DNA of 64,000 nt from Isoetes taiwanensis (lineage: Eukaryota; Streptophyta; Lycopodiopsida; Isoetales; Isoetaceae): positions 6,880,992 through 6,944,991 of the forward strand of contig JAJEKV010000058.1 of assembly GCA_021234155.1 (NCBI GenBank), read 5' to 3'. The number at the start of each line of letters is the position of its first letter. Within the stretch, counting starts at the first letter, position 1. Of this stretch, positions 24,135-57,079 are shown piece after piece. A program made the translations under genes and the position numbers. The notes under the pieces were generated by a model. The model saw only the letters and a program-made list of their open reading frames with translations. It made no database searches and was not told the origin of the DNA.

Positions 24135-24135
24135 G

Positions 24136-24150: not shown

Positions 24151-24170
24151 AGCAAGATATGGCCAGCTGA

Positions 24171-24936: not shown

Positions 24937-24993
24937 GGGAAGTGGAACCGAGGACGTGGTCGTAGCTCATTTGGTTGTGGAAGGGGACGGACT

Positions 24994-26916: not shown

Positions 26917-27715
26917 AATGAACTGGATTCATTTAGAAGAACCGACACTTATGAACTCGTATCGCGACCAAAGGACAAGAACATTGTGGGAAGCAAGTGG
27001 ATTTTTAAAATTAAAAGAAAAGCAGATGGATCGATAGAGGTGGCTCACAACATGCTACCTAGGCTCCAACATGCCAAGGTGGCTCAAATGTGCCACCTAG
27101 GCTCCAACATGCCACCTAAGCTCAAACATGCCAAGGTGGTCCAAACATGCCAAGGTGGCTCAAACATGCCACCTAGGCTCCAACATGCTGGTTGCAAAGG
27201 GGTATACTCAAGAAGAAGGTGTGGACTATAAGGATACCTTCTCACCTATAGTCAAAGTGACTAGCCTGAGGACACTCGTTACAGTTGCAGTGCAAAATGA
27301 CATGGAGATGAACCATATGGATGTCAAGACTGCATTCCTGAATGGAGATTTAGACGAAGAAATTTACATGGAGCAGCCGCAGGGATATGAACAAGGTCAG
27401 AACATGGTGTGCAAATTAAAAAAGGAAGTTTACGGACTTAGGCAAGCGGCCAGGCAATGGTATTTGTGCATGAACAGATTCCTGATTTTTGCAGGATTTA
27501 CAAAATTAAAACTGAGGGGAATTTATACATGAAAAGAAATGGGGACAGATGTCTAATTATGGCTCTCGATGTGGATGATTGCGTCATTGTGAGCAATGAC
27601 AAAAGCTTAGTAGGATTGCAAAGCATTGCTGAATGGTCGATTTCAGATGACAGATTTGGAAAATTTGGAGAAATTATTAGGAAGTATCCATGGCAGCTTC
27701 GGAAATAATCTGATT
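26917..27715 (+). pseudogene. Copia reverse transcriptase with an internal 19-bp repeat block
   Basis: Starts with NIVGSKWIFKIKRKADGSIE, is interrupted by a block of 19-bp tandem repeats (27038-27188), and resumes VAKGYTQEEGVDYKDTFSP, MDVKTAFLNGDLDEEIYMEQP and VYGLRQAARQWY. The catalytic region reads ALDVDDCVIVSND, so the usual Y-V-D-D is D-V-D-D. Frameshifts near 27190 and 27510 and a deletion before RNase H make it inactive. Confidence 0.85.
27038..27188 (+). repeat. Tandem 19-bp repeat inside the copia RT
   Basis: Seven to eight units, each ending CTC(A/C)AACATG. Two subtypes alternate: CCAAGGTGGCTCAAACATG and CCACCTAGGCTCCAACATG. It lies exactly where the conserved Y-K-A-R-L segment of copia RT should be and has replaced it. 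Confidence 0.85.
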
Positions 27716-27744
27716 GCGTAGAATGCTTGAGGAATTAGGGAATT

Positions 27745-27996
27745 TGTCAAGCTACCGTGTTGTACTGCAATAATAAGAGCGGGGTATCAATGACAAAAAA
27801 TCCAATCCATCATTCCCGAACCAAGCGCATTGATATGCATCATCACTTCATACGAGATGAAGTGGAAAAGGGGGAGATAAACGTAATGCATATTCCCACC
27901 AAACTGCAGCAGGCAGATATGCTAACGAAGGCCCTTTCTGAGCCTAAACTGGTGGCAGCAAGAAATTTAGTTGGAATCATTGACTATAAAGGCTAA
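27745..27996 (+). pseudogene. Copia RNase H C-terminal remnant
   Basis: VLYCNNKSGVSMTKNPIHHSRTKRIDMHHHF followed by IPTKLQQADMLTKALSEPK is the C-terminus of copia RNase H. The earlier catalytic part is missing, so a deletion joins RT to this tail. It ends 10 bases before the 3' LTR. Confidence 0.8.
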
Positions 27997-28004
27997 AGGG
28001 GGAG
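27995..28004 (+). other. Copia polypurine tract
   Basis: AAAGGGGGAG just before the 3' LTR, the plus-strand primer site. Confidence 0.8.
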
Positions 28005-28006
28005 TT

Positions 28007-28323
28007 TGTTGGTATTAGCCTTTATTCTAAAAAGCCCAAAACCGTGTAAACCCAAAAGCCGTGTACACGTGGGAAATTATTAGAGAGCGGTGGATGTATC
28101 AGGTGAAAATATAATCAGGGAAAAGAACAGACGGAGGCGGCTTTTTGGGTTCTGAGGCAGCAATCAGGTACCAGCAAGGAAGGCAACAGAGAAATTGAAA
28201 AAGTCAGATTGGGAAGCAAGAATAAGGTCTGACAGAAAGCAGAATATCAGAGACGCTGTTATAGACAACGTGCTTGGGATGTCGGAGTAGACATCTTTGA
28301 TTCGAAGGCTTCCCATATCAACA
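28007..28323 (+). repeat. Copia 3' LTR
   Basis: Starts TGTTGGTATTAG and ends ATATCAACA, followed by the second ATTAG. Confidence 0.95.
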
Positions 28324-28328: not shown

Positions 28329-29871
28329 AATCCAACAATCTCCAAAGATGTATTGCTGCACCAAACTCCAAGGGATCCTCTAAATCTTGAGTTTGGCGAT
28401 ACATACTCTCCCCAAACAATCTAGACTACAACATCAATTGCTCCCAATCGAGAAGACCTTGTATAGTTTCAGTACCAACCTTTCTTGGAATGCAAAAGTA
28501 ATCCTTGATGGTAGTCATCTTACTTTGAAAGGTTTTATACACATCTGCCATTGAGCCCTTCCAAACTTGCAGAAAAACAACACCCATAGCATCAAACACA
28601 TCATCTCGTGGAAACCTGGAACGAAGCTCATTGACGAGATTGCGTGATACCTACAAAGTGAGAAGCATCAAGTATATTATGTATACTTTTTTCCCTCACT
28701 AAATGCATAACTTTCACATGCAAATAAGAAATCAAATTCATGCAAAATTGACATAGGGTTCAAAGAAGATTTACTTGTTTCATATGAAGTTTAACTGTCT
28801 CAACCAAGTCTTGAAATTCAGAACTCTTCAGTTCACACTTCCTGAGGTGGCTTCCTCTTCCCCTCCTTGTCCTAAAATTCATGCAGAGAAATTGATCTTT
28901 GACACATATGCATAATCCTAGCTCTCATGTGATCCAACTTGAACCAGTTTGTTCCAAGCAGCAAATTCCTCTTTATGTAGTTCAAAACATGACTTTCCAG
29001 CCAAAGTATCTCATATCAATTTTCTATCTCAACTTGCAAGGATTTTCTAGCTATGGTATACTCAGATAAAGATTTGTCTATCTTGTGAAATCTGTATCAT
29101 ATAGTTTAGCTTCCCCATCAAAGGTTGGATAACAAAGAGTGTAAGCATAGTCTCACAATTTGTCATAAGTCCCATTAGCTCAAATGCCCTTTGTGCCATA
29201 TTTTCATCATCATCATTCAAATAGAATTCACTTGCCATACCAACCAATGATACATACTTCTCACAAAGGCATTGCATAGGTAGATGCAAAGAAATCCACC
29301 TAGTGTTGACATCTTTTAATAACTTATTCCCTTTAGTGATACCACTTGCAAAGTCCCAAAATATTGCCAACCTTTGAGGACTTTTAGAGAAAAAGTTGTA
29401 AGCAGCATGAACTAAGAATTCAACCTTACCAACATTTTGCGAATCAGAAATTGTCTTGTATGCCAAGTTGGTCCTATGATACATGCAATGAAGCACACTG
29501 ATGTATGGTGCTAAGTTTGTTTGTATTCAGACGCCCAATCCTGTCCTCTTTCCTTGCATCACAGAAGCTCCATCAGCTCCAAAACATATTAGTTTCTGAG
29601 CACACTCAATAGGATCCAAAAGAACAACATTAGATAAATGCTTGACAATCACATTGAAGAGTGTCTCCGCAGTAGCATCTCCTGAGAGCTTCTTAATACC
29701 TAAAAAGTAGGAGACATGTTCAAAGTTTACAACATTGTAAAGATGCATTGCAACCCATGAGGTATTATCAATTGTCGTGACTTCATCCATGGATAATGAA
29801 AGAAAAGATGAATTTTGAACAATTAAGCAAAGCTTTAATCTCAATGCATCACTCATGTGCTCATCAAGCAT
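28329..29871 (-). pseudogene. hAT-like transposase, catalytic part (upstream of copia insertion)
   Basis: Reverse-strand frames show SFLSLSMDEVTTIDNTSW, LICFGADGASVMQGKRTGLG, then after a stop LHCMYHRTNLAYKTI, DVNTRWISLHLPMQ and, nearer the copia, FQSKMTTIKDYFC and DPLEFGAAIHLWRLLDS. The DGASVM-GKR and HC-x2-HR motifs are those of zinc-finger-associated hAT transposases. Stops near 29525 and 28410 and an AT-rich, intron-like gap (28650-29060) break it. It starts abruptly at 29871, beside the last codons of the DUF7869 gene, so the two were joined by insertion or rearrangement. Confidence 0.75.
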
Positions 29872-32604
29872 TGGCAGCAGTCGTTCTCATCCAGTGCACT
29901 TTTAATTGAGTGGGAATTCCATCCTCTCTTGTTACCTCCAGTACTTTAGCTAGCCAGAATGGCCTCCCAGATTCATCATTATCAGCTGGGACAGCTATGA
30001 GCATTCCTTTCTGAATCTCTGAGACTGAACCAGATACTCGAGCAACTTGTTGTGCTGTGCGTCTAGGGCCAGTGTACATGACTCTGTCATCTTCATCTGA
30101 GCTAGCCAATATCTCTACATGTTCCTCTTGATTCTCAACTTGCACAGGGAGGGTTTGCCTAGATGGCCAGTTGAATGTAACTGGTCTTCGACCTTGTAAT
30201 GAAGCTTGCAACATGTCACGTTGCCGAGAAAAAAATTGAGGCCACCATAAAGCATCTGCCTCCCCAAAGTGGTTAGAGCAGGACTGAATACTTGTCTCAA
30301 TACAATCCAATGATTTATTTGAGTCAAATGCTCTTCCCTCCTTTTTACTCTTTGTGATTTCTTTCAAGCTTTTTAGAGGCATTTGCTCTGCAGAGAGCAT
30401 GGAACTAGTATTGGGGATGTTGCGAATGAATTGAATACCTGCTGCTGGCTGCCACTGCAAGGATGTGGCATATTTCTTTCCTTGTAAGATGGCCTTGCCA
30501 TCTACAAGTGAAATTTTGATCTGATGCTGAAATGTAATGTTTCTCAAGGGCTCAATAGCACAGTGACCTAGTTGATCTCTCCGAAAAATCCATTCCTTGA
30601 AATCATAAGTTTCTTCCAATAACTCGATGTCTGGACGAGGATTGTAGGAATCTTGGATGACCTCAATCATGGTGGCGGGGCTTAGAGCTTTTTTCGAGCA
30701 AGGCGTTTAGAGAACCTCTTGAACATCGATCAATTTGGTCGTGTGTATGACCAACAAGCGTGAAACCAATCTTCACCTTCTTGAAGATTTGTTTCTCTAC
30801 TAGCATAGCACGATAAGCAAACAACGCCGATTCTTATTTTCCCTTGTCGTGTTATCTAGTCGAAGATCTGAGCCGGTATATGTTCTAGATTGGAAAGAAG
30901 CTTATTCAATATTGTGATAGTGAGATTTGGATCAGCATGAATGTTTGGATAATTCAAAAATGCCTTGCAAGATAGTTTTCCATTAAATACCATAGCACCA
31001 ACAACATGCAGATGTATGAAATCTTCTTCAGCAGCATCCTTAGGCACATTGACAAAATGTGGTAGGGTGGTCTTCTTCTGGTCCATTCCATCAATAACAA
31101 CTGATATGTAGTTGAGTGGTTGTTCAAAGTGCTTTCTTCCTATGTTTTGTCAATTTTCTCCTTTCCAAAGATTGTTGTTCTCTGTGCTTGTTCAGTTTCT
31201 CCTTCAATGCATCTGAAAGGAAAATATGTTTAGGAAAGAACCTACTTTTAAGTAGAACTAGGCAAGAACACGTCCTGGAAGCTTACTTTTAGTGTGAAGT
31301 GTCCTTGCATTTTGTCTCTGAGCTTTTAATTCAGAGCATGTAGCACAAACAGACATCCTATGCTTTCTAGGAATGGCCACGCGAGAAAACTCTTTTTTCC
31401 AGAGCACAGTAAAGTAAGAGTAGCAGACAAAGCGTTCTCCAGCCTCAACACACATCTCCTTATAATTATCGTAGACTTCTTGTTTCGTGAAATTGTCACT
31501 CAAGTGGTACATAGGGCTATTAGGGAGTTTCTCACAAGACTCCTTAAAGAAACCTTCCATCCAGGAAACACATTGAAGGGCATGAATTCTGGTTATGCCT
31601 CCTGAATGGCGAGTCATTGATGCCCGGATTCTTGTCAAGCCTTTTCTTCAGCGGTCAAGTCGTCTCACGCCTAAAGCATGAATCAATTTGAAGGCCGTTT
31701 TGGGGACGGTGTGGCCACCAGCTGTATAAGTAAACTTCTCACCATCATCTGGCCTAATATTGAAGGCTAAGTAGCCCCTTTGGTCTAGCAGAGTCATTGA
31801 ACTGTAACTATCACGAATCAACCTCAATTCCTTTAGTCCAATCTTAAGCAAACAACGTTGAGAACAACAGTGCTTTGTATGTGTTGCCCGCAAGTGAGCC
31901 TCGTCCATGAGTTTCTTTCTTCTAACAGTTGTACATGCTTTCTTGTGTAAGTTACGTTTAAGATTCTTACTTGCAGGGGCTTTGAATTCGAACAAGGAGT
32001 CTTGTGGCTTTGGTAGGTCCTCGTCTGAGAGATCAACATGAGGTGTTTCTTCGTCTGAGAGATCAACTTGAGGTGTACTTGTAGATGCTGATAGGTTTGG
32101 TGTGTGCAAGTCCTGGGGGGAGGTGCTTTCCCTCTCTCTGGGAAAAAGTAATCGAGGTTGGTGACGTAGTTGACCAGCTCCTGAAGTGTCGTAGAACACA
32201 GGAGTTGCGTGTCGCTGACTGCTTCCACTTGTTGTAGTATCATTTAGCGAAATTGATGGAGTTGGCGTGATTTGCCTCCGGGGATTTAGCCTACGGTGGA
32301 CTAAGGGCGACGTACTAAACTGAAGTGGAGGAGGTAGTCTGACCTCTCTAGCCTGAGGTGGGGTAAAACGCATTGGTGGGGGCAGACGACGTTCAGGAGC
32401 AGGGTGTGGTGGAGTAAGTTGAACTGGTGGTGGAAGCCGAGGTGGTCGTGCTGGAGTAAACTCAACAGAGCTGGGGGTTTGAATATCAGAGGCAGAATTT
32501 CCGAGGCTACTTTCAGGTGTCAGTTGAGGGGGTGTGAATGTCATTGCAGGAGGAAGCCTGCGAACAGGACTTGGAGGCTCTGCAGTTCTTTTTTCTCGAG
32601 CCAT
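29864..32604 (-). CDS. DUF7869-type gene (possible DDE-like transposase), with breaks
   Basis: Start is taken at 32604 (MAREKRTAEPPSPVRRLPP) because upstream codons only translate palindromes. A long Pro/Thr/Ser-rich N-terminus (repeated RLPPPxxxTPP) leads to a basic Cys/His segment (HTKHCCSQRCLLK). One TGA (31648-31650) interrupts an otherwise open frame continuing SMTRHSGGITRIHALQCVSW. Exon 1 ends at 31287 (donor GTAAGC), and an acceptor at 31213 leads on with matching phase. Hallmarks of DUF7869 follow: VVIDGMDQKKTTLPHF, LDNTTRENKN and VGHTHDQID, then a C-terminal KGMLIAVPADNDESGRPFW. The spacing D...D...H/D resembles an RNase H fold, so a transposase role is an inference. Frameshifts near 31145, 30860 and 30700 break this copy. 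It is divergent from the methyltransferase gene. Confidence 0.7.
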
Positions 32605-32624: not shown

Positions 32625-32790
32625 ACTGTATAAATTTATACGACAGAAGAGCAGATGGTAAAAGTTTACACAGGGATGGTATAAATTTATACAGAGAAGG
32701 CAAACTTGTAGCTGCAGACTGTATAAATTTATACAGAGATGGTATAAATTTATACGGAGGAGGAAGACACGGCACAAATTTATACGAAAA
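32625..32790. repeat. Palindrome cluster upstream of the DUF7869 gene
   Basis: Four GTATAAATTTATAC cores and one decayed (CACAAATTTATAC) in 165 bp, flanked mostly by ACT/ATGG and CAGAG rather than CGG/CCG. They lie in the 5' UTR or promoter of the minus-strand gene. Confidence 0.9.
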
Positions 32791-32982: not shown

Positions 32983-35900
32983 ATGGCCACGTAAGTCTAC
33001 TTTCCGTACTGTTTTAGTTTCTCTTTGGTTTTAATCTGTTAGAGTGTAAGCCCCACGGTATAAATTTATACCGAGATGGCTCTGGATCGGTATAAATTTA
33101 TACGCCCCGTGCTCGAGCGGTATAAATTTATACCGCTGAAGACGGGCTTATAAACGAGACTGTTCGGCACGAAGCGGTATAAATTTATACCGCCCTCAAC
33201 ACATTCGATTGTTCGGGCGAAGTATAAATTTATACGCTTCGCTCGCAGCGGTATAAATTTATCGCCCCTGCTCGAGCGGTATAAATTTATACCGCTCAGC
33301 ACTAGCGTGTAAATTTATACCGCAAGTGCTCGAAGCGAGTATAAATTTATACCGCTCGAGAACCATTTTAAATTCTTGACGCCTAGTGCTCAAATCTAAT
33401 GGTCCCGAACCTTAATATTTTGGTAATATTGTTGTGTTTTCAGCTTAAATGACACAAATGAAGTGTTAATTTAGTGTGGATTTTATGCCCTTTCATCCTC
33501 TTTTTCTACTGTTTTTGTGTTTCAAAAATTCGAAAAAGGTACAGTTTCTTTTGTAAAAATGGTTTTTTTTGCGCATTACAGTGGCCCTAAGATCAAGTTT
33601 GTACTCGGAGGGTCATCATCAAAGGGTGCACCACCAGAGCCACAGACTTATGAACTAAAGGATCAGACTTGGTACGTCCACAGGGGCGCAAGAGAGAGCA
33701 AACCCACTGAGGCGTACCTTTACTTGTGCAAACAATCAGGGAAGGGCAAGTTCAAGTCCGATGATTATTACCCTGCTGGCGAAATTATAAGCCTTGTTGC
33801 TACAGAGAACGATGATGAAGTTCTAATGCAGTGCAACCATGACAAGGGTCCCGTCCACTATGTTCTGAATACTAGAATGCTTAGAATTAGCATGTGCAAG
33901 CCTAAAGACGTACACGATTACATTGCGGACAATTACAAGAGCGGCTTCGTAAGTTATTCTTACATGCTTTCCGTATAAATTTATACCGTCATTCTCTTAA
34001 CTTAACCCTGCATTACAGGACGTAGTAGAAATTTTGATGTCAGTAGTGCTGTGCGACGAAAAAGTGTTGGTCAAGGGTCTATGGTACCCCCGTACTATCG
34101 AAGAGGAAGTAGTAGAGGAAGAGGAAGAGGAAGAGGAGGAACCAGTCGTCACAAAGGGAAAGGGTAGGAAGTATTCCCTGGTAGAAGATACACAGCCTCC
34201 TACCAAGAAAAAGTCTAGAATCACAAAGTCCTTGACTATAGAGGAGTCAGCAGAAGCTCTTCAGAAGGCTCCAGGAGCAGATATCGTTGTGAAGCCCGCA
34301 GATAAGTCGAGTGCTATTCTCAAGCGGGTTAATGAAACCAAACTGCTCAAGCAGACCATTTCTTTGACACTAAGCACTATTAAGAGGCCACCAAAAAATG
34401 AAGATGGGGTCAGAGTGCTTCAGGTCCGAAAGTTGTACGCGGCACATGTGGCTATCCTTAAGCAAAGAATGAGAAGGAATCCTCATGCCCATGTGTCGCC
34501 ACTAGTTGTGATGGTGGACAGAAGTCAGTGCAACCAATTAAAAGACTACAAAAAGGCAGATTTTGAAGATTACACCTATTATGTTCTTGGAGGCACACAT
34601 AGTTATAAAGCAAGAAAAGAACTTTCAAAAGAAGAAAGCCGTAATGAAGTCCGGAAAGAGCGTGGAAGCACATATCTATGTGGGGGTGACAGACGAAGAG
34701 GCAAAAGTCATTGCCGTGAGTCACAATCTCGACAATGACTTCAGACTAAAGATGAGCCTAATAGACAAGATTCGCTTCATGCACCGAGAGTACGTGGATT
34801 TCAAACAAGTGCATGGAGACGACTTCAAAAAACAAAAGAACAAGCTTCAAGAGCTTCGAGAAGCCTGTGTGACAGAGTGTTGCCTCAGTTATGATTCGGA
34901 TAAGAAACCCATTATGGCTGTCAAACAATACGATAACTACTTTCAGCTAGCTTTCAGAGATGGTCAAGTAAGTAAAAGCTTCAATTCAATCTTTTGTAGT
35001 ATGTTTGGCGTAGTTAGAAGCTTGTAATAGCCTAGTGACGGTATAAATTTATATAGTAGGCGCGGTATAAATTTATCGCGAGTGCACGGCGCTGATCGAG
35101 CACCGGTATAAATTTATCTGTGACTTGCACCGTATAAATTTATACCGTGTTGAGTCGCCGTGCCCATCCTCTTACGCCATTCAACACTAAACTTCGTTTG
35201 AACATTTACAGGTGTGGGATCTTCAAGAGAGAATTTTTTGTATGTTCGAAGATGGGGAGCTCAAAGAACAAGCTAGGGACGCAGGATAGAAACCAAAGAA
35301 AGGTGGTGAATCAAAACAAAAAAATATGAGCATTGTACCACGGGACGATTCTGAGGTCTTAAAAGCAAAGAAATATTTGTTCGCCTGTTGGAAAAAGTAG
35401 TTGCCAAAGAATTCACATTAGACGAGATGGCCAAGGAAGCTAAAACGTAAGCCTCACTTGCTATGCCAAGTTTTTTTCTACCTTTTTTTGTCTTACAATA
35501 CTTTTCCCTCTGCAGTCAGAAAGACATTGTCACTTGCCAGGCCGAGTTAATGAAGCAGCTCAACCTAGAAGACTGGGAGGAGTGCAAACTTTTGTACCCA
35601 AGTTGCACCACAGACAGTATCATCAGAGAGCACGCAGTTAACTCCAGTGGCTGGGTAAGTTTTGCAAACAATATGTTATGTGTTTGTGCCTTTGTCTTAC
35701 ATTACTCTTCTGAGAACAAGAAGAAGGGGCTACCAAGCTGGATTTTTTAAACCTGGTTCGTAGGGCCAAAGAAGAGAGGCAAAGGCTTAAGGCAATTGAA
35801 GGGGGTAGAGAGGTCGCCACTTCCGGTTTTATTTGTACATATGAGAGATTTACCACATTTGGTCAGGACGTCCAGTACAGGGTTGTTGAGGGTGATTGTA

Positions 35901-37127
35901 CAAGGCTGGGGACTCTTTTAGACAAGCAAAATTTTACATTATACATTGCAGATATTCCTTATGGATTTAAAATAAAGGATAGCGCTTTTGATGAGGAGGC
36001 TTTCACTCACGTGCAAATCCGGTCTTTCCTGGATGGCCTAAAAAGAAGTCACGACATCCGAAAGCGGAGGGTCATCATTTTTCATTCCGACCTTCGGGGC
36101 GATGTCGGTGCTTAAACCTATGGGGAGGTGATGCATGCCGGCTTCGAAAACTGCGTTTGGTAAGCTTCACAATTAACGCTTTTTGTTTTACGGTAACTCC
36201 ACTGTATAAATTTATACCACATCTGTCTTAAGGTTTAAATTTTAAAGGCTGGAACAACCGCGGTATAAATTTATCTGACAAGGCAATGTCGTTTCAAATT
36301 TATCTGACTTTGCCGCCGTGGTATAAATTTATCTGACAAGGCAACCGTCATTATAAGTTTATACCGCCACACTCTTGGGCTAACTTATTTTCCTTGTTTT
36401 CTTTTTACTAATTTCTAATTGCTGTTTTGCTTGGCAGGCTTAAAACAAACGTCAAGGGTCATGGTGGTGGTCCGTGCTTAGTGAGCTGTTTCGAGCATTT
36501 TCATATAGGTTTTTACAGCGCGGACACCAAAAAAACCATGATTCATTTTAACACGCAGAATGAGAAGACTTCTCCCCGCAATGCATTTCGGTTCAGTAAA
36601 TTGTTTCAGAAATTAAAGAGACCCACTGGCGACAAACTGTTTTGTGGTGTCCCATTATCGAAGCCCCAACGACTTATTAATAATTTGGTACGAGTGGTTT
36701 TTCATACAGAGATCGGATCTTAGATGCCTTTTCTGGATCAGGCACCACAGCAGTTTGCACCCTTAAAGCAGGCCGCAATGTCGTCTCAGTCGACATAGAC
36801 CCAGATAAAGTAAGTTTCATCAGGACCAGGATAAGCTCTTGTGAATCTTTTCCTGATGAAAATGAGGAACTGGGAGCAAAGAACGGTGCTAGCGATGCTA
36901 AGGGCACTTACACAGAAATCCAGCCTCCACTTACAGGAAGAAGAGATGAGGAGGTGGAGTTTGTCGACTTAGAGCCTGTGGTGCCCGAGCTAGAGAAACA
37001 GCCTGTACCTGTGCCATTGGAATCAGAAGCAGGCGTCTCTGCTATCATACCCTCACAAGAGTCATATCCTAAAGGGTACGAGAGTCCTGTGGACTGGGAA
37101 GAACCACCTCCTCCACCAGTTGTATAA
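32983..37127 (+). CDS. ParB-like domain fused to DNA N4/N6-methyltransferase, intron-containing
   Basis: Exon 1 is ATGGCCAC (32983-32990) with donor GTAAGT; exon 2 starts 33582 in phase. Other boundaries seen: 33582-33948, 34019-34967, about 35213-35446, 35518-35655, about 35725-36159, 36438-37127. Domains: an unrecognised N-terminal domain (WYVHRGARE); an acidic run then KKKSR; a ParB-like domain (VRVLQVRKLY, then YYVLGGTHSYKA at 34589-34612, then VSHNLDNDFRLKMSLIDKI); a helical linker; and a beta-order methyltransferase with YRVVEGDCTRLGTLL, IADIPYG (35951-35965), PLSKPQRLINNLV and LDAFSGSGTT (36720-36749), the AdoMet-binding motif I. Motif IV is DIPY, not DPPY. The Pro/Glu-rich tail ends VV-stop. 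A TAG (35287-35289) and frame breaks near 34640, 35340-35400, 36040-36130 and 36690 disturb this copy; some may be read errors. It would methylate adenine or cytosine at its exocyclic amino group. Confidence 0.75.
33055..33360. repeat. Palindrome array in intron 1 of the methyltransferase gene
   Basis: Eight copies of TATAAATTTAT plus one decayed copy, most within the 18-bp palindrome CGGTATAAATTTATACCG, spaced 25-60 bp by unrelated GC-rich sequence (GCTCGAGC, CGAAGCG). Confidence 0.95.
33949..34018 (+). other. 70-bp intron 2 holding a single palindrome
   Basis: GTAAGT at 33949, acceptor CATTACAG ending 34018, phase 0. CGTATAAATTTATACCG occupies about a quarter of the intron. Confidence 0.75.
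35038..35148. repeat. Palindrome cluster in intron 3
   Basis: Four TATAAATTTAT cores. In the second copy of this region (54500-54622) nearly all read as complete CGGTATAAATTTATACCG, so the half-sites here (TTATCGCG, TTATCTG) look decayed or mis-read. Confidence 0.9.
36202..36370. repeat. Palindrome cluster in intron 6
   Basis: Three TATAAATTTAT cores plus diverged AAATTTAT and AAGTTTATACCG sites within the intron 36160-36437. Confidence 0.85.
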
Positions 37128-37136
37128 ATTTATACA
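37120..37136. repeat. Palindrome containing the methyltransferase stop codon
   Basis: TTGTATAAATTTATACA: the GTA Val codon and TAA stop (37125-37127) lie inside the palindrome. The same arrangement is kept at 56600-56616. Confidence 0.9.
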
Positions 37137-37544
37137 GTCAAGATTACAAACTAACTTTCATTGTAAACTATGTGCTAAGAAATATAACATATTTTGATGA
37201 TGATTTTTAATCTGAAAGCTTTGTCTCTTCAACAGTGCTTAATTAGAGCAACTCTTTCTTGCTCCATGATTTCACACTCTTTGTCTTCCCTATGTTTAAT
37301 TTTCTTAGTACTTATATTAAGCTTGCAAAAAGACAAACTGTATTTCCTTCTATTTTCAGCAATAAATACTTATTCAGCTTTTAAATTTAATGTCACCCTC
37401 CTCAAAACAAGCTTTTTTTTTTTTTTGCCCTCTTTAAAAAATGAAAAGGCTTCAAAAATGTTGGGGTATTTCGAATGCTAATTACTTAACAATCTATTTT
37501 GCTCCCTATTTTGTCTGTTTTTTTCAAGTTTCCAATTTTTATAA
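37128..37544. other. 3' region of the methyltransferase element
   Basis: AT-rich with no coding frame; contains a T run (37410-37424) and AATAAATACT, a possible polyadenylation signal region. Nearly identical to 56608-57025. Confidence 0.5.
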
Positions 37545-37598
37545 AGGAATCTTTCAAACGCACTTCTTAAATAAGTGCGTTTCATTTTAAACCTTGTT
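37545..37598. mobile_element. Right terminal repeat of the methyltransferase element
   Basis: Starts AGGAATCTTTCAAACGCACT and ends TTTAAACCTTGTT, with a hairpin (AACGCACTT / AAGTGCGTT). The same sequence ends the 43436-45604 element, where its inverted partner is found, so this is the likely right end of the larger element. Its own left end was not found; it may be lost at the hAT junction near 29870. Confidence 0.7.
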
Positions 37599-37784
37599 TA
37601 CATTGGTTCTGAATACATGGTCTCAGGAGTTTACATGAACACATAGCAGGATAAAACATATGCTTCAATCCCATGAGACATAAATGCAGCAAGCCAGCCG
37701 TGCACTAACTAACTTCTGCTACTAACAGCTATCTTCCATTATAAGCAAAATCAAAGTTGTTAGTTCAACGTGCTGCCTTTTTTG

Positions 37785-37976
37785 TTATAATTTCAAATCT
37801 ACTCCTAAAGTACTTCTATGTACAATAAACTTCTCCTTGATCAGAGGTTTAGTCAGCAGGTCAGCAGGCATTTCCTCTGGTGGAAGATGTTCCATAACAA
37901 TAGTTTCATCCACTACTTTCTCCCGTGTGAAAGATTGGATCTCTTTGTATTTGTATGTATCCAATCTCTGATCCAA
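37785..37976 (-). pseudogene. Copia RNase H tail fragment
   Basis: REKVVDETIVMEHLPPEEMP then ADLLTKPLIKEKF is the C-terminal end of a copia polyprotein. Only 63 codons remain. Confidence 0.75.
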
Positions 37977-38601
37977 TTTCGTAACTAGACTGTCTCTCTT
38001 AGTGACCAGCGTTTTGTGAAGAATTACAAAAACCCCTATCTTGAGATTGTTGCTTTAAAATTTCAACAGGAGCAACTTTGTATTTAGTGGAATCTGTGCC
38101 TTTGGTGTCGAAATTTGAATAATAAAAAGACCTAGCATGAAGCAATCAATTATCAGATTTCTCCATAAAATTAACCCTTAGAGCTTGTGCTTAATGCAAA
38201 ATGAAAGGGTTAAAATCATGCCATAGTTGCATCTTCACAACTTCCGATTTGGGATTAGTGGTTAACTTTCCTTGTGGCTTCAAAACCTTCTAATTTTGTT
38301 AACCTAGAGTTGTAGATGGAAAGGCTTCAGAAAATGCGCCTAGAGTTGTAGGATGGAAAGGCTTGAAAAGAGTATTATTGAAGAAACATACCTATTAATT
38401 TTTAAGGAACCGCTGGGAGAACTTGTGATAGGTTCTTTGGGAAGAACTTTCTTTATGCGGATCAATATCCTCGGACTTCACCGTTCCACTTTTCCCTGGA
38501 GAAGGTACTGATTTTTAAACATCCCAAACCCGATTGGACGGTGATCCAATGTATGCGATTGATCTGAGATGTAGCCATGCATTACGCCTTTCGCCCTAAC
38601 T

Positions 38602-39084
38602 TTGATCTTGCTATATGTTGATGACATGGTCTTCACGGAAGATGCAGCACAGTTAATTGCCCATAGTAAGGAGATGCTAGCACAACAGTTTGAAATCACT
38701 GAACCCTTTATGCAGCATCCCAAGCAATCACAGTGGCAAGCAGCTAAAAGAGTTTCTCATTACCTAAAGGGTACTTTTACAGATGCTCTTTATTACAGTT
38801 CAACTGATAGTTGTACTCTCAATCTTTTCTCTGATTCAGATATGACCACTAGTGATGTTGAATGGAGAAAGTCACGTACAGGATATGTTTCTTTCTTAGC
38901 TGATAATGCTATCACATGGCACTCTAAAAAGCAGTCCACTGTTAGTATCAGTACCTCAGAGGTTGAACTCAAAGCTTTTATGCATAGCTCTAATATCATG
39001 TCCTCCAGCTACTTTGTTAGGCTGAGCAGAATTATCAAAGTTAGCCCTTTCTTTGTTTTCCTTTCTTGGTGTACAGATATGTAA
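38602..39084 (+). pseudogene. Copia reverse transcriptase/RNase H fragment
   Basis: Begins at the RT active site (LLYVDDMVFT), jumps by deletion to the connection region (HPKQSQWQAAKRVSHYLKGT), then RNase H (NLFSDSDMTTSDVEWRKSRT, WHSKKQSTVSISTSEVELKA). The remaining 30 codons are not copia. It is opposite in strand to the preceding tail fragment, so they are separate debris. An AAATGCGCCTAGAGTTGTAG repeat lies before it (38310-38362). Confidence 0.8.
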
Positions 39085-39193
39085 GTAATATTTCTTTGAT
39101 TTTGCTGTTTTCATATGTTGACATGTTCAGATGCTAACTCGATATTAGATTAGGTATGCTTTTGCAAAGGTAAGCTCCTTAGAGATGATGCAG

Positions 39194-39582
39194 GTAAAGA
39201 ATTTGAGCAGAAGGCATCGGATGCTATGAAGACATATTGTAGGGATGTCATATTTAAGACAAAATCAAAGAAAGGCAAAGAACCATTGAATGTAAGTATC
39301 TTTGTACATTTTTATTATTTCAACCTAGTATTCGTACATTATTCTTATACTTGTACTTTTTTGACATTCAGGATATATGCTACGTTGATGATTCTAATGA
39401 GGTAAGAAAAGAAGCTTTATTATTAATGTTTACTTACAAAAGTTCTAACCATATCCTTTACTTAATAGGATAAGAATGAAAGGACAATGACCATGCAGGC
39501 AATGCAAATGAAGAGGGTCATGGGGATGAACCAACAAATAGAGAGGATTGAGTTGCTTATATTGATTATTTTGTTGACATGA
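39194..39582 (+). pseudogene. 3' exons of a CACTA-type transposon gene
   Basis: Three exons with GT-AG borders: 39194-39291 (KEFEQKASDAMKTYCRDVIF), 39372-39401 (DICYVDDSNE) and 39469-39582 (TMTMQAMQMKRVMGMNQQIE, stop TGA). Small phased exons just inside a CACTA-type terminus suggest the end of a CACTA transposase-associated gene. The upstream part is missing. Confidence 0.5.
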
Positions 39583-39719
39583 AAATTAGTATTTTGCCTT
39601 GAAACATTTTCTATGGGCATTTGTTATGTTGGAAATTCTACTTAATGAAACTTCGTACTTTAGCTTTTTGATATCTAATTTGGAAAAATAAATTATTTGT
39701 TATCAAAGAAAAAACATTT

Positions 39720-40473
39720 ACCTAGATGTTTATCCTTTTGAAACAAGTCAAAATGCACACATTGTCCCAAATTAGGTATTACCTAGACACATAACTTGTC
39801 ACAAATTGGTTGTCTTAGGGTAGATGGGTAGATGTAATATAGCTATCTTGTTGTCCCTAGCTTGCCATGTTGATGATGCTATGTTGTTAGTATAGGCTTT
39901 ATTTATTTATCATAATGTGGTCACAACACTTATATTCTTTAGACACAAAGCGGTAACAAAATTTCTTACTAGTTGCCTTATTATGGATAGGATTATAGCT
40001 GCTATTTTGTCACTATTTTGCCATGATGATGATGTTATCTTTGTTAGTATAGGCTTTACTTATCTATCACAATGTGATTATAACACTAGCTATTTTTTTA
40101 GACACAAAATTTCTTATCGACTTCTTGTAGATGCATTCTAGCTACTACTTTGTCGCTAGCTTGCTATAAGGTTGATGTAATGTTGTTCATAAGGGCTTTC
40201 ATTTATTTATCACAATGTTGATAAAATCTTGTCACAAGTTTGACATTTTCTACATTGCCATGTAGTTTTAAATTGATTTTGTGTCAATATTATGACATAA
40301 ATTGAGGCCACAAGCTTGACACAACATTCGACGCTATTGTGGCATGTTTGTGACAAATGATCACGACAAGTATAGCGTCAAGGCTGTGACAATAACTGGG
40401 TTTTGACAAGTTCTCCTTGTGTCAAGAAATTTGACGTTACACTAGACACTATAGGTACCCTTCTCTTGTAGTG
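39720..40473. mobile_element. CACTA (En/Spm) right end with subterminal repeats
   Basis: The last bases, read in reverse, are CACTACAAGAGAAGGGTACC, matching the CACTACAAGA terminus of plant CACTA elements; the end is at 40473. Inside it are at least three degenerate ~150-bp repeats (CTAGCTTGCCATG/GATGATG...TATAGGCTTTA...TATCACAATGTG...GACACAAA) and short TGTGACAA motifs, typical subterminal binding sites. The left end was not found. Confidence 0.75.
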
Positions 40474-42590
40474 CCTCCTGGTTGCTCTAGTCAGTTTGGG
40501 GAGCCAATAGCGGTGGTGGGATGGTGGCACCCTAAATTTTGGTGCTTCGCCATTTTATTTCAATAAAACCATTAAGGTATGCTTTGCCCTAATTGGTTAC
40601 CCAATTATACTAGTTCCCAAGGCAACCTTAACAACTAGATACTTATCGGTCGTACCCCTAGTCCAAATTGCCAAAGTGCACCTCGCAATTCAACTAGGCC
40701 ACGATGCGACCATAAAGGTTCCATGGCAAGCATTACCATCGAAATATTAAATTATCGCTCATTAGCATGCATGCAAATTCTAATAATGGTGCTGCAATTT
40801 ATTCTAGGCTAAAGCAGGAAATGCTTGGTTAGGAAATTTTGAGGAATTGTAACTGCGTGTAGATCTGAAAATTCACACTCTGAGTTTAGAAATAGCAAAA
40901 ACTTTACCTACTAAAAATAATGATTTTACTAGTTACTTTTGGTAGGAATGGAGTGCGGTATATATTTGGTAGGCTGGGCTAGATCCAACAGGAAATGCAC
41001 CGATTGTACTAAAAAAATTTCCCAAACCAAGGTGGAATGTGGTCTGCATATCTAGCATAATAACGGGGGGTTGCTTTTGATATTTTTATACTGTTCTTCA
41101 TATGGTTTTCCTATGATTTGGTTACTGTATTTATTTGGATGTACTAATTAGTATTTCTAGAGCGCACTCTTTCTGCGCCATTGATATTGAAAGAGGAAAA
41201 ATCTCTTTTAGGCATTGGGTTTTTTGCTTTTTGGGTTTTATAGATATCTATTTATTGGGTTGTTTTTCATAAGCTTTGAAATTTAAGATCAACACCGCAT
41301 GCAGGGCTCGAGCAGCTCTTCTATAGGGTTCCAAACCCACAGTAGGGTTTCATTCGAATGAAACTATGGTTCTATTTGGAGGCATAGAGCAAGAGGAGCA
41401 AAGCCAGTCCCTATTATTGCACTACCCTGCTGAGAATGAATCTGTTGAGAACATGAGGTAAGAATAAAGAACGCATGATTTGTTTTGCGATGTTGGCGAG
41501 TTATTAACGAAGCATCAAACCCCCATTAGAGGCGGTTGGGGTCTCAAAAGCGACCTCCTATCAGCCATTCCCGTCATATTTCCGCTCCTTTTTCCCATGC
41601 CACCTAGAATACCAAACTCTCATAATTATAGATTTGCTTGGAATATTCTTAGGAATAAGGGGATTGCACATTCATGGGCCATATGTATTTAATTACATTT
41701 GGTTGTCGGACGGTGATGCAACACGTGGCGCTTCTAAAATGCCACTTGCATTATAGCATACCAGGCAACTCATGGCGGTGTCTCTTGGTTTGTCGGATAC
41801 CAAAAGCGTGCATCGCGCCTTCTACATTTCAAAATTGGAATGTGTAGGTTGAAGCTTTGTATCGGATCAGACTTTCATTTCGGTGGCTGCAAGCTGCGCT
41901 TAACCGATCTTCACTTCATCCTATCTACAGGCTTCCGCCCCTACATTCGAAATTTGAATTTGCTTAATGTATAAAAGCATGGATTGTAGGAGAATGGACT
42001 TTTCGATTTCCATATGCGTTGCAAATTTCAAAAAAGCGAGGTTAATGCGGACATTAGGCTCACCGCGAAGCCCGAATTGTGTTGGGGCATAAAAATTGTA
42101 CACCTTCATTTGGCCCGATCGCGATCCCCTTGATATGGAAGTTGCTGTTGTCAAATTAAACTTAAACACAAGTGAGGTCGGCACTTACATTGGTTTTCTC
42201 GAGGAGGGTTTGGAGTGTGTTTTTAAATCCCAATTATCGTCATAGTGTGACGTAGCATCTTGGTATTAAATAGTATGTTAAATTCGAATTATATGGGTGT
42301 TCATTTTTCAGGTTAAACTCAAATCATATAGGTTTAGGAATAAGGTTAAAAAGGAAGATATTGGATATTTAGGAATAAGGTTAAAAAAGGAAGATATTGG
42401 ATATGGCTCAAATTTGAGACATGCACATAATGGCATGTAATGATGGTTGATAGGATTTGGAATTGAATCATTCCCTACGATTTTCCGTCTAATCCAGCCT
42501 ATATCTATTCCAGCCTAGATTAAGCCTATTCTCCCCAATCTCCGCCCAATCTTGGCTAGATCCTTAGCCCAATTTAGCTAGTCCATCGCC
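40474..42590. other. No intact gene; decayed first-exon-like segment at 41325-41460
   Basis: 41325-41460 (AACCCACAGTAGGGTTTCATT, then a Glu/Gln-rich frame ending at donor GTAAGAAT) is similar to 48080-48195, so both may derive from one gene's first exon; its ATG is ATA here. 42320-42420 holds a 39-bp tandem duplication (AGGTTAAAAAGGAAGATATTGG). The rest is AT-rich with no supported frame. Confidence 0.45.
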
Positions 42591-43000: not shown

Positions 43001-43019
43001 GTTAGAGGCAGAGCACCTC

Positions 43020-43090: not shown

Positions 43091-43974
43091 TCTTACCATA
43101 TGATTTGCAAGCCTCCGGGCTTTTTGTTGTGAATAGTTGAAGCCTCAGGGCATTTAAATTTACAAAATGATGTTACGATGTAAAGCCATCTGACCATAAA
43201 AAATTTTGAATGTAAAAAGTTTTTACTTCTAATTCCATTTGAATACCTAACTTGTTTTTTTCTTGTACATGTGTTCTTGCACATGTGTTTTTTTTTATCT
43301 TGTGTTATGGTGTTTGTGTTTAGATACCTCTAATACAAGAAGTCTTTGACTACTTTTTTCTATGATTCCTTTAAAAAATCTATTCTTTGTTTAAATTATA
43401 GCAAAAAAATGAGTCTTGAAACTCTTTAAGTAGTAAACAAAGTTTAAAATGAAACGCACTAATTTGCTATTAACGCACTTTAAAAGGAATCTTTGAAAGA
43501 TTCCCTAAAATCCCCCCAAAAAGGTCCCTTTTCGTGGTATATTTGTGACAAATGTGACAATTTGAAAATTTTAGGCATCAATTTTGAGGGGGGGTGTGAA
43601 CTTAGCTTTCATTCAAAATTGTTTGATATCCCTTTTTGGCCCCCTAGTTTGGTTTGAGAAATAGTAATATTTTCAAAAACTAAACAAAATAGACATTGAA
43701 AAAAACAGCAAGCACACTAAAGTGCCAAAAAGGTATTTTATTCAAAGTTTTCAAAATCAATATAAAACTATGAACAAAACTGTAAAAAATGCAACACATT
43801 TGACATTGCCTCATCGAAGCAAACATTTTCACATGAAAGTATGCCTCATTGAACAAACTTACACTTTGAAGTGTAAGTTGGAGTCGAAGACGCTCGCTCT
43901 TCATCTTATATACTTGCTCTTATTTGCTCATTCGTCTTGCTATAGACTGATGTATACCGCGATGACAATAAATT

Positions 43975-44400
43975 TCTAGATGGCATAAATTTATACTACA
44001 ATAGATAGTGTTGTGTGGATATAACATGCCAGAGAGTTCGCATGGTATAAATTTATACATAAGTGGACTCGGCGGTATAAATTTATCTGCGAGAGGACTC
44101 GAGCGGTATAAATTTATACCGCGAGAGCTCTCTCGATTCACTGCGAGAGCTCTCACGGTATAAATTTATACCGTGAGAGCTCCCTCGTTATACCGCGAGA
44201 GCTCTCTCGGTATAAATTTATCTGCATGACGACTCTCGGTATAAATTTATACCGCAGACAACCTTCAAACAACCAATTTATATACATATATGTGTATATA
44301 TATATAATATATACACATACTTACATATATATATCCGACAAGAAAAGAGAACTCTTGCGGTATAAATCTATACGGAGAAACGGTATAAATTTATACCGAA
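43975..44400. repeat. Palindrome array of the non-autonomous element
   Basis: Seven TATAAATTTAT cores plus diverged sites, spaced 25-55 bp. Spacers here are themselves palindromic, such as CGCGAGAGCTCTCTCG. Near-identical to 63472-63890, where more copies are complete. Confidence 0.9.
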
Positions 44401-44470
44401 TTACATATATATATAAGACTTTTTATATATATATATGTATATATATATATCGATCAGAGGCAAAATATAT
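44275..44470. repeat. AT-dinucleotide microsatellites
   Basis: Several ATATAT/TATATG runs interleaved with two palindromes. Length varies between the two copies of the region, as expected for slippage. Confidence 0.85.
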
Positions 44471-44709
44471 ATCGTGTAAAATCTTTTGGGGTCTTTCTTG
44501 CTCGCCAAAGGGTTTGCAACCTGAAAACTACTAAAGTAACACACATAAGGGATAATTTTACACACTTTTCTTGGTTTTTAGTCTAAAAAGTTCTAAAAAC
44601 GGTTCTAAAATTTCGAGCTTGTAATGCAATGTTAGAGCATAAAGTAGTCGAATCATGTTGTTATTTCTACTTTTTTTTCTCTATATACATGCGAACTTCA
44701 CTTGGGTAG

Positions 44710-44925
44710 CTCAAAAAATTGCTACTAAAGGCAAAAAGAACTCCAAAATGTTATGGTGACACGGTGTTTGGCGAAAAGGAAACTACATGGTTTATCGGAG
44801 GGGTGCGAGGAGTAGAAACCCCTCGAAGTTTACCTATTTATTTGCAAAATATATAGGAAAGGGTAAAGGCGGAGACGAATATTTCCTTTGCCCAGAGAAA
44901 TGTGCATGGTGCCCTTACTACTGAG
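44710..44925 (+). pseudogene. Decayed N-terminal domain of the methyltransferase gene
   Basis: One frame reads YMVYRRGARSRNPSKFTYLF and then YIGKGKGGDEYF before a TGA. This parallels WYVHRGARESKPTEAYLYL and SGKGKFKSDDYY of the larger gene (33670-33760): R-G-A-R, P, Y-L and G-K-G-K are shared. Divergence is high, so it is an old relative and not part of the recent duplication. Confidence 0.6.
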
Positions 44926-45604
44926 ATGGCGTAATTGTGATGAATATGCTCAACATTACTAAAGAGATTGACTATCTTTGAGCATCACCATGTTGTAGAA
45001 AGATATGTGCATTCAAAATACATCTCGAGAATAAAAAGGAGGGCATGTAATCACGGGGCTTCATTACTTCAACTTTTGTATCCTCGGTACAAATTTATCT
45101 TGCATCATCAACTAAAACTTCAACTTAGCTACAAGATATCGTGGATGTATTGGCATTTATAATACTATGTGATGCAAAAACAATGGTTTGTCATTCAAAG
45201 TTTGTTCAAGCTGCCTCCCAATGTGTTTTAAGGTCCATTAGGATGTTTAGCAAAAATGGTTGTGAAATAACAAATTTCTTGTCTTCTAAAAGCGACTAAT
45301 ATAAAAGTTTTCGAGGGGACAAGGTACAAAAGCATCTAATTTCTTCATGAATTTGCCCCCCATAGTAAATCTTTGAATTTCATTGTAGTTCTTTCCCCCT
45401 CTAAAATGGGATTTTTTTTGTTTTGTGTTTTTCCTTAATACTAAGTCTTCTTAAAATGTCTGTTTTCACGAGCAATTTTATAAATCTTTGGACTAATGGT
45501 AATAAAAGGGCCCTTTTTAGAGGGATTTTAGAATTTTATAAATTTTCAAAAGGAATCTTTCAAACGCACTTCTTAAATAAGTGCGTTTCATTTTAAACCT
45601 TGTT

Positions 45605-53805: not shown

Positions 53806-54499
53806 GCTCAAGCAGACCATTTCTTTGACACTAAGCACTATTAAGAGGCCACCAAAAAATGAAGATGGGGTCAGAGTGCTTCAGGTCCGAAAGTTGTACA
53901 CGGCACATGTGGCTATCCTTAAGCAAAGAATGAGAAGGAATCCTCATGCCCATGTGTCGCCACTAGTTGTGATGGTGGACAGAAGTCAGTGCAACCAATT
54001 AAAAGACTACAAAAAGGCAGATTTTGAAGATTACACCTATTATGTTCTTGGAGGCACACATAGTTATAAAGCAAGAAAAGAACTTTCAAAAGAAGAAAGC
54101 CGTAATGAAGTCTGAAAGAGCGTGGAAGCACATATCTATGTGGGGTGATGACGAAGAGGCAAAAGTCATTGCCGTGAGTCACAATCTCGACAATGACTTC
54201 GGACTAAAGATGAGCCTAATAGACAAGATTAAGCTTCATGCACCGAGAGTACGTGGATTTTCAAACAAGTGCATGGAGACGACTTCAAAACAAAAGAACA
54301 AGCTTCAAGAGCTTCGAGAAGCCCTGTGTGATGATCTTTGCCTTTCGAGTTATGATTGGGATAAGAAACCCATTATGGTCGTCAAACAATACGATAACTA
54401 CTTTCGCCTAGCTTTCGTGAGATGGTCAAGTAAGTAAAAGCTTCAATTCAATCTTTTGTAGTATGTTTGGCGTAGTTAGAAGCTTGTAATAGCCTAGTG

Positions 54500-54622
54500 A
54501 CGGTATAAATTTATACCGTGGGCACGGTATAAATTTATACCGCGGTGCACGGCCTTGCACGACACGGTATAAATTTATACCTGTAAATTTATGCACCGGC
54601 AACCGTATAAATTTATACCGTG
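54500..54622. repeat. Palindrome cluster, intron 3, second copy
   Basis: Four cores, three with full or nearly full CGGTATAAATTTATACCG; an extra CTGTAAATTTATG site between. Confidence 0.9.
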
Positions 54623-55683
54623 TTGAGTCGCCGTGCCCATCCTCTTACGCCATTCAACACTAAACTTCGTTTGAACATTTACAGGTGTGGGATCTTCAAG
54701 AGAGAATTTTTTGTATGTTCGAAGATGGGGAGCTCAAAGAACAAGCTAGGGACGCAGGATAGAAACCAAAGAAAGGTGGTGAATCAAAACAAAAAAATAT
54801 GAGCATTGTACCCGGACGCTAGCTGATTCTGGTCTTAAAAGCAAAGAAATATTTGTTACTTTGTTGGAAAAAGTAGTTGCCAAAGAATTCACATTAGACG
54901 AGATGGCCAAGGAAGCTAAAACGTAAGCCTCACTTGCTATGCCAAGTTTTTTTCTACCTTTTTTTGTCTTACAATACTTTTCCCTCTGCAGTCAGAAAGA
55001 CATTGTCACTTGCCAGGCCGAGTTAATGAAGCAGCTCAACCTAGAAGACTGGGAGGAGTGCAAACTTTTGTACCCAAGTTGCACCACAGACAGTATCATC
55101 AGAGAGCACGCAGTTAACTTCAGTGGCTGGGTAAGTTTTGCAAACAATATGTTATGTGTTTGTGCCTTTGTCTTACATTACTCTTCTGTAACAAGAAGAA
55201 GGGGCTACCAACCGGATTTTTAAACCCGGGTTCGTGAGGGCCAAAGAAGAGAGGCAAAGGCTTAAGGCAATTGAACAGTGGTAGAGAGGTCGCCACTTCA
55301 GCTTTGATCGTACATATATGAGAGATTTACCACATTTGGTCGACGCCCAAAGATGGGGTTGTTGAGGGTGATTGTACAAGGCTGGGGACTCTTTTAGACA
55401 AGCAAAATTTTACATTATGCATTGCAGATATTCCTTATGGATTTAAAATAAAGGATAGCGCTTTTGATGAGGAGGCTTTCACTCACGTGCAAGTCCGGTC
55501 TTTCCTGGATGGCCTAAAAGAAGTCACGACACATCCAAAACCGGAGGGTCATCATTTTCATTCCGACCTTCGCATCGACGATGTCGGTGCTTAAACCTAT
55601 GGGAGCGGGCGTAACGCCGCGCCGGCAAAAGCTAGCGTTTGGTAAGCTTCACAATTAACGCTTTTTGTTTTACGGTAACTCCA

Positions 55684-55850
55684 CTGTATAAATTTATACC
55701 ACATCTGTCTTAAGGTTTAAATTTTAAAGGCTGGAACAACCGCGGTATAAATTTATACAGCAAGGCAATGTCTGTTCAAATTTATACGGCTTGCCGCCGT
55801 GGTATAAATTTATACAAAGAAGGCAACCGTCAGATAAGTTTATACCGCCA
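55684..55850. repeat. Palindrome cluster, intron 6, second copy
   Basis: Three TATAAATTTATAC cores and two diverged sites; several end ACAG or ACAAAG where copy 1 reads ATCTGAC. Confidence 0.85.
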
Positions 55851-57025
55851 CACTACTTGGGCTAACTTATTTTTCCTTGTTTTCTTTTTACTAATTTCTA
55901 ATTCCGCTTTTGCTTGGCGTGCTTAAAACAAACGTCAAGGGTCATGGTGGTGGTCCGTGCTTAGTGAGTCTGTTTCGAGCATTTTCATATAGGTTTTACA
56001 GTAGCGGACACCAAAAAAACCATGATTCATTTTAACACGCAGAATGAGAAGACTTCTCCCTGCAATGCATTTCAGTTCCCAGCTGTTCCGCAGAAATTAA
56101 GAGACCCACGGCGACAAGTTGGGTGTGGTGTCCCATTATCGAAGCCGCAATGCACTTATTAATAATTTGGTACGGTGGTTTTCGCCTCGAGACCGGATCT
56201 TAGATGCCTTTTCCGGATCGTGCACCACGCCAGCCTTTGCACCCTTAAAGCAGAGCCGCAATGTCGCCTCAAATCGACATAGACCCGTGATAAAGTAAGT
56301 TTCATCAGGACCAGGATAAGCTCTTGTGAATCTTTTCCTGATGAAAATGAGGAACTGGGAGCAAAGAACGGTGCTAGCGATGCTAAGGGCACTTACACAG
56401 AAATCCAGCCTCCACTTACAGGAAGAAGAGATGAGGAGGTGGAGTTTGTCGACTTAGAGCCTGTGGTGCCCGAGCTAGAGAAACAAACTGCACTGCAAGC
56501 CATTGGAATCGAAGCGCGCCTCGCTATCATACCCTCACAAGAGTCATATCCTAAGGGGTACGAGAGTCCTGTGGACTGGGAAGAACCACCTCCTCCACCA
56601 GTTGTATAAATTTATACAGTCAAGATTACAAACTAACTTTCATTGTAAACTATGTGCTAAGAAATATAACATATTTTGATGATGATTTTTAATCTGAAAG
56701 CTTTGTCTCTTCAACAGTGCTTAATTAGAGCAACTCTTTCTTGCTCCATGATTTCACACTCTTTGTCTTCCCTATGTTTAATTTTCTTAGTACTTATATT
56801 AAGCTTGCAAAAAGACAAACTGTATTTCCTTCTATTTTCAGCAATAAATACTTATTCAGCTTTTAAATTTAATGTCACCCTCCTCAAAACAAGCTTTTTT
56901 TTTTTTTGCCCTCTTTAAAAAATGAAAAGGCTTCAAAAATGTTGGGGTATTTCGAATGCTAATTACTTAACAATCTATTTTGCTCCCTATTTTGTCTGTT
57001 TTTTTCAAGTTTCCAATTTTTATAA

Positions 57026-57079
57026 AGGAATCTTTCAAACGCACTTCTTAAATAAGTGCGTTTCATTTTAAACCTTGTT
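57026..57079. mobile_element. Right terminal repeat of the methyltransferase element, second copy
   Basis: Same as 37545-37598, including the AACGCACTT/AAGTGCGTT hairpin and end AAACCTTGTT. Confidence 0.7.

Follow-up and report, generated by a model that had tools for sequence, protein, structure and literature searches.

A two-gene DNA transposon of Isoetes taiwanensis with a predicted ParB-like/methyltransferase gene carries family-specific palindrome arrays

Introduction

Genes joining a ParB-like domain to an N4/N6 amino-methyltransferase (MTase) are already known from eukaryotic transposons of algae. In the passages available from PMC12477816, the Ectocarpus element Sola1-1_Ec32 carries a 1104-amino-acid ParB-like and N4/N6-MTase gene on the strand opposite its transposase, green and red algal cases are cited (Iyer 2011, Petroll 2025), and the authors propose that the protein binds and marks the element's own sequence. 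Other mobile elements have captured cytosine MTases, including retrotransposons of Symbiodinium and charophytes (excerpts of PMC5890265), and a bacterial-type DNA mark, N4-methylcytosine, occurs in bdelloid rotifers (excerpts of PMC8885841). The parts of PMC12695648 at hand treat MT-A70 enzymes and N6-methyladenine (6mA) and question whether 6mA in plants is real; their passages on 6mA do not mention the kind of gene considered here. We report such a gene, located in a DNA transposon, from a 64,000-nucleotide stretch (the window) of the lycophyte Isoetes taiwanensis (GenBank assembly GCA_021234155.1, contig JAJEKV010000058.1, positions 6,880,992 to 6,944,991, forward strand). An initial annotation, made from the window's letters, had taken such a fusion to be undescribed in a plant transposon. 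The Ectocarpus Sola1 element and the other algal cases narrow that claim, and what stands is its land-plant part: a literature search in which most subscription papers were out of reach found no land-plant ParB-like/MTase transposon with family-specific arrays, and the present case is thus apparently new.

Results

A spliced gene and its relatives

All six motifs on which the initial annotation relied (VRVLQVRKLY, GGTHSYKA, VSHNLDND, DIPYG, KPQRLINNLV and LDAFSGSGTT) are encoded on the + strand at approximately 34,4xx-36,7xx. Its description of an intron-containing, transposon-borne gene was also borne out, by six GTAAGY donors, two junctions backed by Adiantum homologues and a partner gene of the DUF7869 family. 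The ParB-like/MTase gene is real, and its exons make up 2,832 of 4,145 bp:

32983..32990, + strand: exon 1 (ATGGCCAC), followed by the donor GTAAGT at 32991
33582..33948, + strand: exon 2, N-terminal domain of unknown family, no Pfam match
34019..34967, + strand: exon 3, an acidic stretch, a basic stretch resembling a nuclear localization signal, and the ParB-like domain
35212..35446, + strand: exon 4 (VWDLQERIF...)
35516..35654, + strand: exon 5
35719..36159, + strand: exon 6, with MTase motif IV (IADIPYGF); approximate start, ambiguous acceptor
36438..37127, + strand: exon 7, MTase KPQRL and motif I LDAFSGSGTT, stop TAA; PF01555 at 27.8 bits

Donors of the form GTAAGY match exon ends at 32991, 33949, 34968, 35447, 35655 and 36160 (n = 6), and two further GTAAG within the gene match no exon end. 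Homologous Adiantum proteins are contiguous across the junctions joining AFRDGQ to VWDLQE and W to LKTNVKG.

We scrutinized the window's genome (1,658,258,908 bp in 1,110 contigs) for related copies, which gave 3,894 first-look candidates, 60 of them scored, and at least 65 matches spread over many contigs. From the scored matches, 18 ten-kb loci were hand-picked, favouring those with few stops. The ParB-like exon was present in 26 of 26 loci (these 18 and 8 short ones), and its ParB-like stretch ran without a stop for 200 residues from the match start in 24. A DUF7869 partner lay upstream, on the opposite strand of the ParB-like/MTase gene, in all 18 ten-kb loci. Among proteins, a first search returned two from Adiantum and a profile search 34, assigned by name prefixes to A. 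nelumboides (32) and A. capillus-veneris (2); a third search gave, among the matches listed, three proteins, all already known. Viral contigs searched with the Adiantum profile yielded 159 pattern matches, none of them confirmed as relatives.

The methyltransferase half

The C-terminal half of the predicted protein is a beta-class N4/N6 amino-MTase domain. The PF01555 match anticipated by the initial annotation was recovered above the curated cutoff of 26.7 bits on the last exon of the window gene (27.8 bits), and rose to 36.2 bits on its joined pieces; a sister copy elsewhere in the genome (L154) scored 64.2 bits. Beta-class amino-MTases are recognized by motif IV, (D/N/S)PP(Y/F/W), preceding motif I, FxGxGT; in the window gene motif IV precedes motif I, FSGSGTT is present, and motif IV reads DIPY, without P as its second residue. 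A sequence search of the PDB found RsrI as the best match (E 1.5e-8), followed by MboIIA and CcrM, the similarity lying in the MTase part, and hhalign against 43 phage ParB-MTase fusions aligned 237 columns, from motif IV through motif I, at E 9.4e-13. The best PHROG for the Adiantum homologue P0001 was phrog_498, to which the two phage fusions tested align over their ParB and MTase parts alike. Phage and plasmid sequences retrieved with P0001 by tblastn were set aside as relatives of the whole protein; they match the MTase part only, and three annotated phage genes are short single MTase genes.

By pattern search, motif IV was recognized in 12, motif I in 13 and both in 11 of the 18 same-genome loci, and motif IV in 20 of the 34 Adiantum proteins, where its first residue is D in 19 and E in P0001. 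N6-adenine enzymes usually have D here, and the D-x-P-Y form of motif IV leans the predicted target toward N6-adenine.

The ParB-like half

The N-terminal half of the predicted protein is probably ParB-like, an assignment based on weak profile similarity and motif order, without a Pfam match. A profile built from Adiantum and window sequences only showed marginal similarity to 114 ParB pieces from phages (P 0.0059; 4 of 150 permutations as high). Adding 26 copies from the window's own genome enlarged the ParB-region profile to 34 sequences, with which similarity to the phage pieces reached P 0.0026 (1 of 100 permutations as high), to canonical ParB P 0.04 (3 of 100), and to the combined ParB set P 0.0014 over 93 columns (0 of 100), the last being the best of five comparisons. 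In the combined alignment the GGxHSxxA and HN boxes fall in register.

Several results weigh against this assignment, and with it against the reading of the element developed below. PF02195, the family named by the initial annotation, was not reported for the window pieces, for P0001 and P0002 (E<=10) or for L154, nor was it among the 25/29 families listed for 28 members (E<=1); one phage fusion tested matches it at 35.7 bits. The profile of Adiantum and window sequences only gave P 0.18 against canonical ParB, 7 of 100 permuted profiles scoring as high, and canonical ParB alone was dropped as a yardstick. Hidden Markov models of ParB pieces did not score Adiantum proteins above shuffles, and PDB searches with ParB profiles found no ParB, the sole match being sulfiredoxin at E 2, a protein that we take to share the ParB fold. 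AlphaFold, another check proposed at the outset, returned two poor models (mean pLDDT 43.2 and 45.5) with no usable fold, and Foldseek with the first of these found no match at E<=0.001 (CcrM ranked 11th, E 0.54). As for the fusion as originally proposed, the MTase part was thus upheld by PF01555, and the ParB part received modest support from profile-profile comparison and none from Pfam. A separate likening of the window N-terminus to Adiantum N-termini was rejected, with 16 of 100 shuffles scoring as high.

A two-gene element with inverted repeats

The element is a DNA transposon of approximately 8 kb with two genes, terminal inverted repeats and 4-bp target duplications. The features that define it in the window, in addition to the exons above, are:

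29867..32604, - strand (start at 32604): divergent partner gene DUF7869, presumed transposase; PF25273 at 110 bits on joined pieces; broken copy
37544..37598, + strand: right terminal inverted repeat of the main copy, ending ...CTTGTT
43436..45604, + strand: decayed 2.2-kb relative with both terminal repeats, a palindrome array and the 4-bp flanks AGTA/AGTA

The left end of the main copy was not found in the window with up to 3 mismatches. In the sister family, an end pattern recovered 7 complete pairs of ends among the 18 loci, separated by 7.7-8.5 kb; the 4-bp flanks were identical in all 7 pairs (chance 1 in 256 each). Target duplications of 4 bp are a trait of the Sola superfamily; duplications of this length were seen at 7 of 7 end pairs and as AGTA/AGTA in the window, and the partner is DUF7869. 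PF25273 matched the partner gene of L154 at 124.5 bits. The DUF7869 protein is presumed to be the transposase, which is supported but not proven. Partner gene, inverted repeats, 4-bp duplications, palindrome arrays and broken frames had all gone unmentioned in the initial annotation.

The C-terminal DUF7869 part (29867-30706) resembles a BAH- or Tudor-like domain by eye, with no Pfam match there. Minus-strand frames at 29062-29886, presumably hAT-type transposase-like, adjoin the end of the DUF7869 gene, and further transposon-like frames lie beyond the partner gene in the window.

Family-specific palindrome arrays

The palindrome GGTATAAATTTATACC occurs at 49 sites in the window with up to 3 mismatches, compared with 0-2 in ten order-1 random sequences. 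Twenty-four of these sites belong to the main copy. Introns hold 18 of them and the interval separating the gene starts 5, which makes 23 non-coding, and the remaining one lies across the stop codon:

32627..32786: 5 sites (<=3 mismatches to GGTATAAATTTATACC), in the interval separating the gene starts
33057..33353: 9 sites, intron 1
33972..33987: 1 site, intron 2
35040..35146: 4 sites, intron 3
36203..36365: 4 sites, intron 6
37121..37136: 1 site, across the stop codon

Genome-wide, GGTATAAATTTATACC has 7,218 exact copies and its reversed control none. The sister family carries a different palindrome, GTGTATTCCGGAATACAC, at corresponding positions, with the core GTATTCCGGAATAC mostly extended to CAAAGTGTATTCCGGAATACACTTTG. 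Both palindromes share GTAT-N6-ATAC and differ in their hexamer cores (AAATTT or TCCGGA). Allowing 2 mismatches, the 18 loci hold 243 sister-family sites (control 0). Along the oriented locus, 127 of them fall at 4.4-5.6 kb, a bin that covers the intergenic region and the surroundings of intron 1; another 99 fall at 6.6-7.75 kb and 15 at 7.75-8.4 kb, leaving 2 outside these bins. Neighbouring sites are 41-43 bp apart in 106 of the 152 close spacings. Exons occupy parts of these bins too; compared with the protein matches, 223 of the 243 sites fall outside protein-matching stretches.

The exact window-type core was found in 1 of 26 sister loci, L153, where it occurs three times around a window-type MTase exon. 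Two loci fetched by the window-type palindrome alone (2 of 10 requested) both carry a window-type gene with its divergent partner, their ParB exons being 91-94% identical to that of the window gene; palindrome type and gene type therefore largely co-occur.

Across the sister loci L142-L159, cores with CA or TG in place of the central CG are frequent (46 and 58, versus 124 intact cores of 12 bases), a pattern that deamination of methylated CG would produce.

Condition of the window copy and neighbouring features

The window copy of the ParB-like/MTase gene has broken frames and no read-through: a frame shift near 34,66x in exon 3, an in-frame TAG at 35,287 together with a frame shift in exon 4, an in-frame TAA near 36,113 in exon 6 and a frame shift near 36,69x in exon 7. 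A block of about 10.2 kb at 34345-44502 recurs at 53806-64000, offset by about 19.46 kb and 95% identical, perhaps through false duplication by the assembler, and holds a second gene copy:

53806..57079, + strand: second gene copy, from inside exon 3 to the right terminal repeat, in the block offset by 19.46 kb

Differences between the two block copies form 167 clusters, of which 111 contain CG (random mean 40.5, highest 55) and 99 contain CWG (random mean 33.5, highest 47), with gaps of up to 810 columns between clusters. Many of these CG/CWG-clustered differences are 1-base indels. By their positions, many of the differences look like consensus errors at methylated cytosines, not decay, and the frame shifts are therefore weak evidence for a dead gene; consensus error does not account for the exon 4 TAG and exon 6 TAA, which are common to both copies. 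The palindrome was also considered as a site of copy-to-copy differences and rejected, TTTAT showing no enrichment among them (5 versus 4.9 random).

Elsewhere in the window, endonuclease- and reverse-transcriptase-like reading frames at 9763-13591 belong to what we take to be a LINE-like element. At 23818-28323, presumably copia-like reading frames lie between 317-bp direct repeats (94.6% alike) in an LTR-retrotransposon-like element. A minisatellite of roughly 31-bp units occupies 50868-52668.

Discussion

The arrangement of genes and palindromes would on balance be explained best by self-recognition and self-marking, whereby the ParB-like/MTase protein recognizes the arrays and methylates the very element that encodes it. 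The ParB-like part, together with the MTase's own recognition, would load the protein onto the element's palindrome arrays, in which GTAT-N6-ATAC surrounds a family-specific core and which lie within introns and around the two promoters. The MTase would then methylate element DNA at the arrays, most likely at N6-adenine. Guessing from the two palindromes, the MTase may target the hexamer cores, with the ParB-like part contacting the arms that both palindromes share. Such a mark, and the protein bound to the arrays, could serve to tell the element's own copies apart, to tune the divergent promoters and/or transposition, or to counter host silencing. Extending this to a plant transposon superfamily that marks itself by sequence-specific 6mA or N4-methylcytosine, with binding and methylation specificity co-evolving with the arrays, is a more tentative proposal that we hold rather less probable than the alternatives to it taken together.

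To the profile and structure results already set against this reading, further ones are added. The second residue of motif IV, which reads DIPY, DLPY, DAPY or DTPY, is not P, and the motif differs from DPPY. Of the 243 sister sites, 20 fall within protein-matching stretches: 9 coincide entirely with alignment gaps (introns), and 11 overlap aligned residues in part or in full. Most of these 11 adjoin the last intron, and the overlap may be alignment overrun. In one locus, L160, 5 sister-type sites lie beyond the partner gene. TTTAT is not enriched among the differences between the block copies, and these therefore give no indirect trace of a modified palindrome.

The main rival takes the arrays to be binding sites of the DUF7869 transposase, with the ParB-like/MTase protein acting elsewhere, for example in general methylation or as a protein partner. 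We consider this unlikely, if still the strongest of the alternatives. Many transposases bind internal or subterminal repeats, and here the arrays occupy introns and also the interval that separates the gene starts. Against it, the 99 of 243 sister sites in the 6.6-7.75-kb bin are downstream of the ParB exon and remote from the ends, and clustered palindromic sites are typical of ParB proteins.

Somewhat less probable is that the MTase has little or no catalytic activity, leaving the protein as a DNA-binding regulator only. In favour of this, position 2 of motif IV is A or T in the 20 pattern-matching Adiantum proteins, the 12 pattern-matching loci have L or I there, and P0001 combines the replacement of D by E with the motif I FAGTDTT. 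The remaining residues of motif IV argue otherwise: D (19 of 20), P, Y and G are retained across families approximately 30-50% identical, and FSGSGTT-like loops persist in 13 of 18 loci.

That the window feature is a dead relic without a living family is very improbable. Neither the window copy nor its duplicate has intact frames, and both contain the TAG and the TAA, but the ParB-like stretch is open for 200 residues in 24 of 26 loci, both MTase motifs survive in 11 of 18 selected loci, and the copy differences cluster at CG and CWG (111 and 99 of 167) as consensus errors at methylated cytosines would. The prokaryotic, phage-like domain pair could point to contamination with bacterial or viral DNA or to a giant-virus gene that became endogenous; this can be practically dismissed given the introns, the multi-Mb contigs, the at least 65 matches on many contigs, the seven loci with both ends and 4-bp duplications and the Adiantum homologues; neither a single-contig distribution nor an absence of plant sequence around the copies was seen.

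Should self-marking hold, it would give plants a genuine, sequence-specific DNA mark other than 5-methylcytosine (5mC). It also suggests how a transposon could track copies of itself where the host genome silences transposons by 5mC. With a candidate enzyme, predicted sites in the thousands and a natural comparison of two families whose palindrome cores differ, the question of plant 6mA becomes testable.

Among known systems, the phage and bacterial ParB-MTase fusions (phrog_498) share the order of ParB followed by a beta-class MTase, and the MTase parts are homologous (E 9.4e-13). They differ in their length of 380-560 amino acids (the 43 used), lack of introns, DPPY motif and shorter linker, and their ParB part is only distantly alike. 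RsrI, MboIIA and CcrM resemble the MTase half in sequence and motif order and, we assume, have no ParB part. The rotifer N4-methylcytosine, as the excerpts of PMC8885841 describe it, is likewise a bacterial-type DNA mark in a eukaryote. The retrotransposons in the passages of PMC5890265 are also mobile, carry a DNA MTase and may methylate themselves, but their enzymes are C5-cytosine MTases. Closest is Sola1-1_Ec32, which, compared by its description in the available part of PMC12477816, likewise has the two domains in one protein, within a DNA transposon and on the strand opposite the transposase; it is a 21.5-kb brown-algal element, whereas those reported here are plant elements of approximately 8 kb with a DUF7869 partner and family-specific palindrome arrays.

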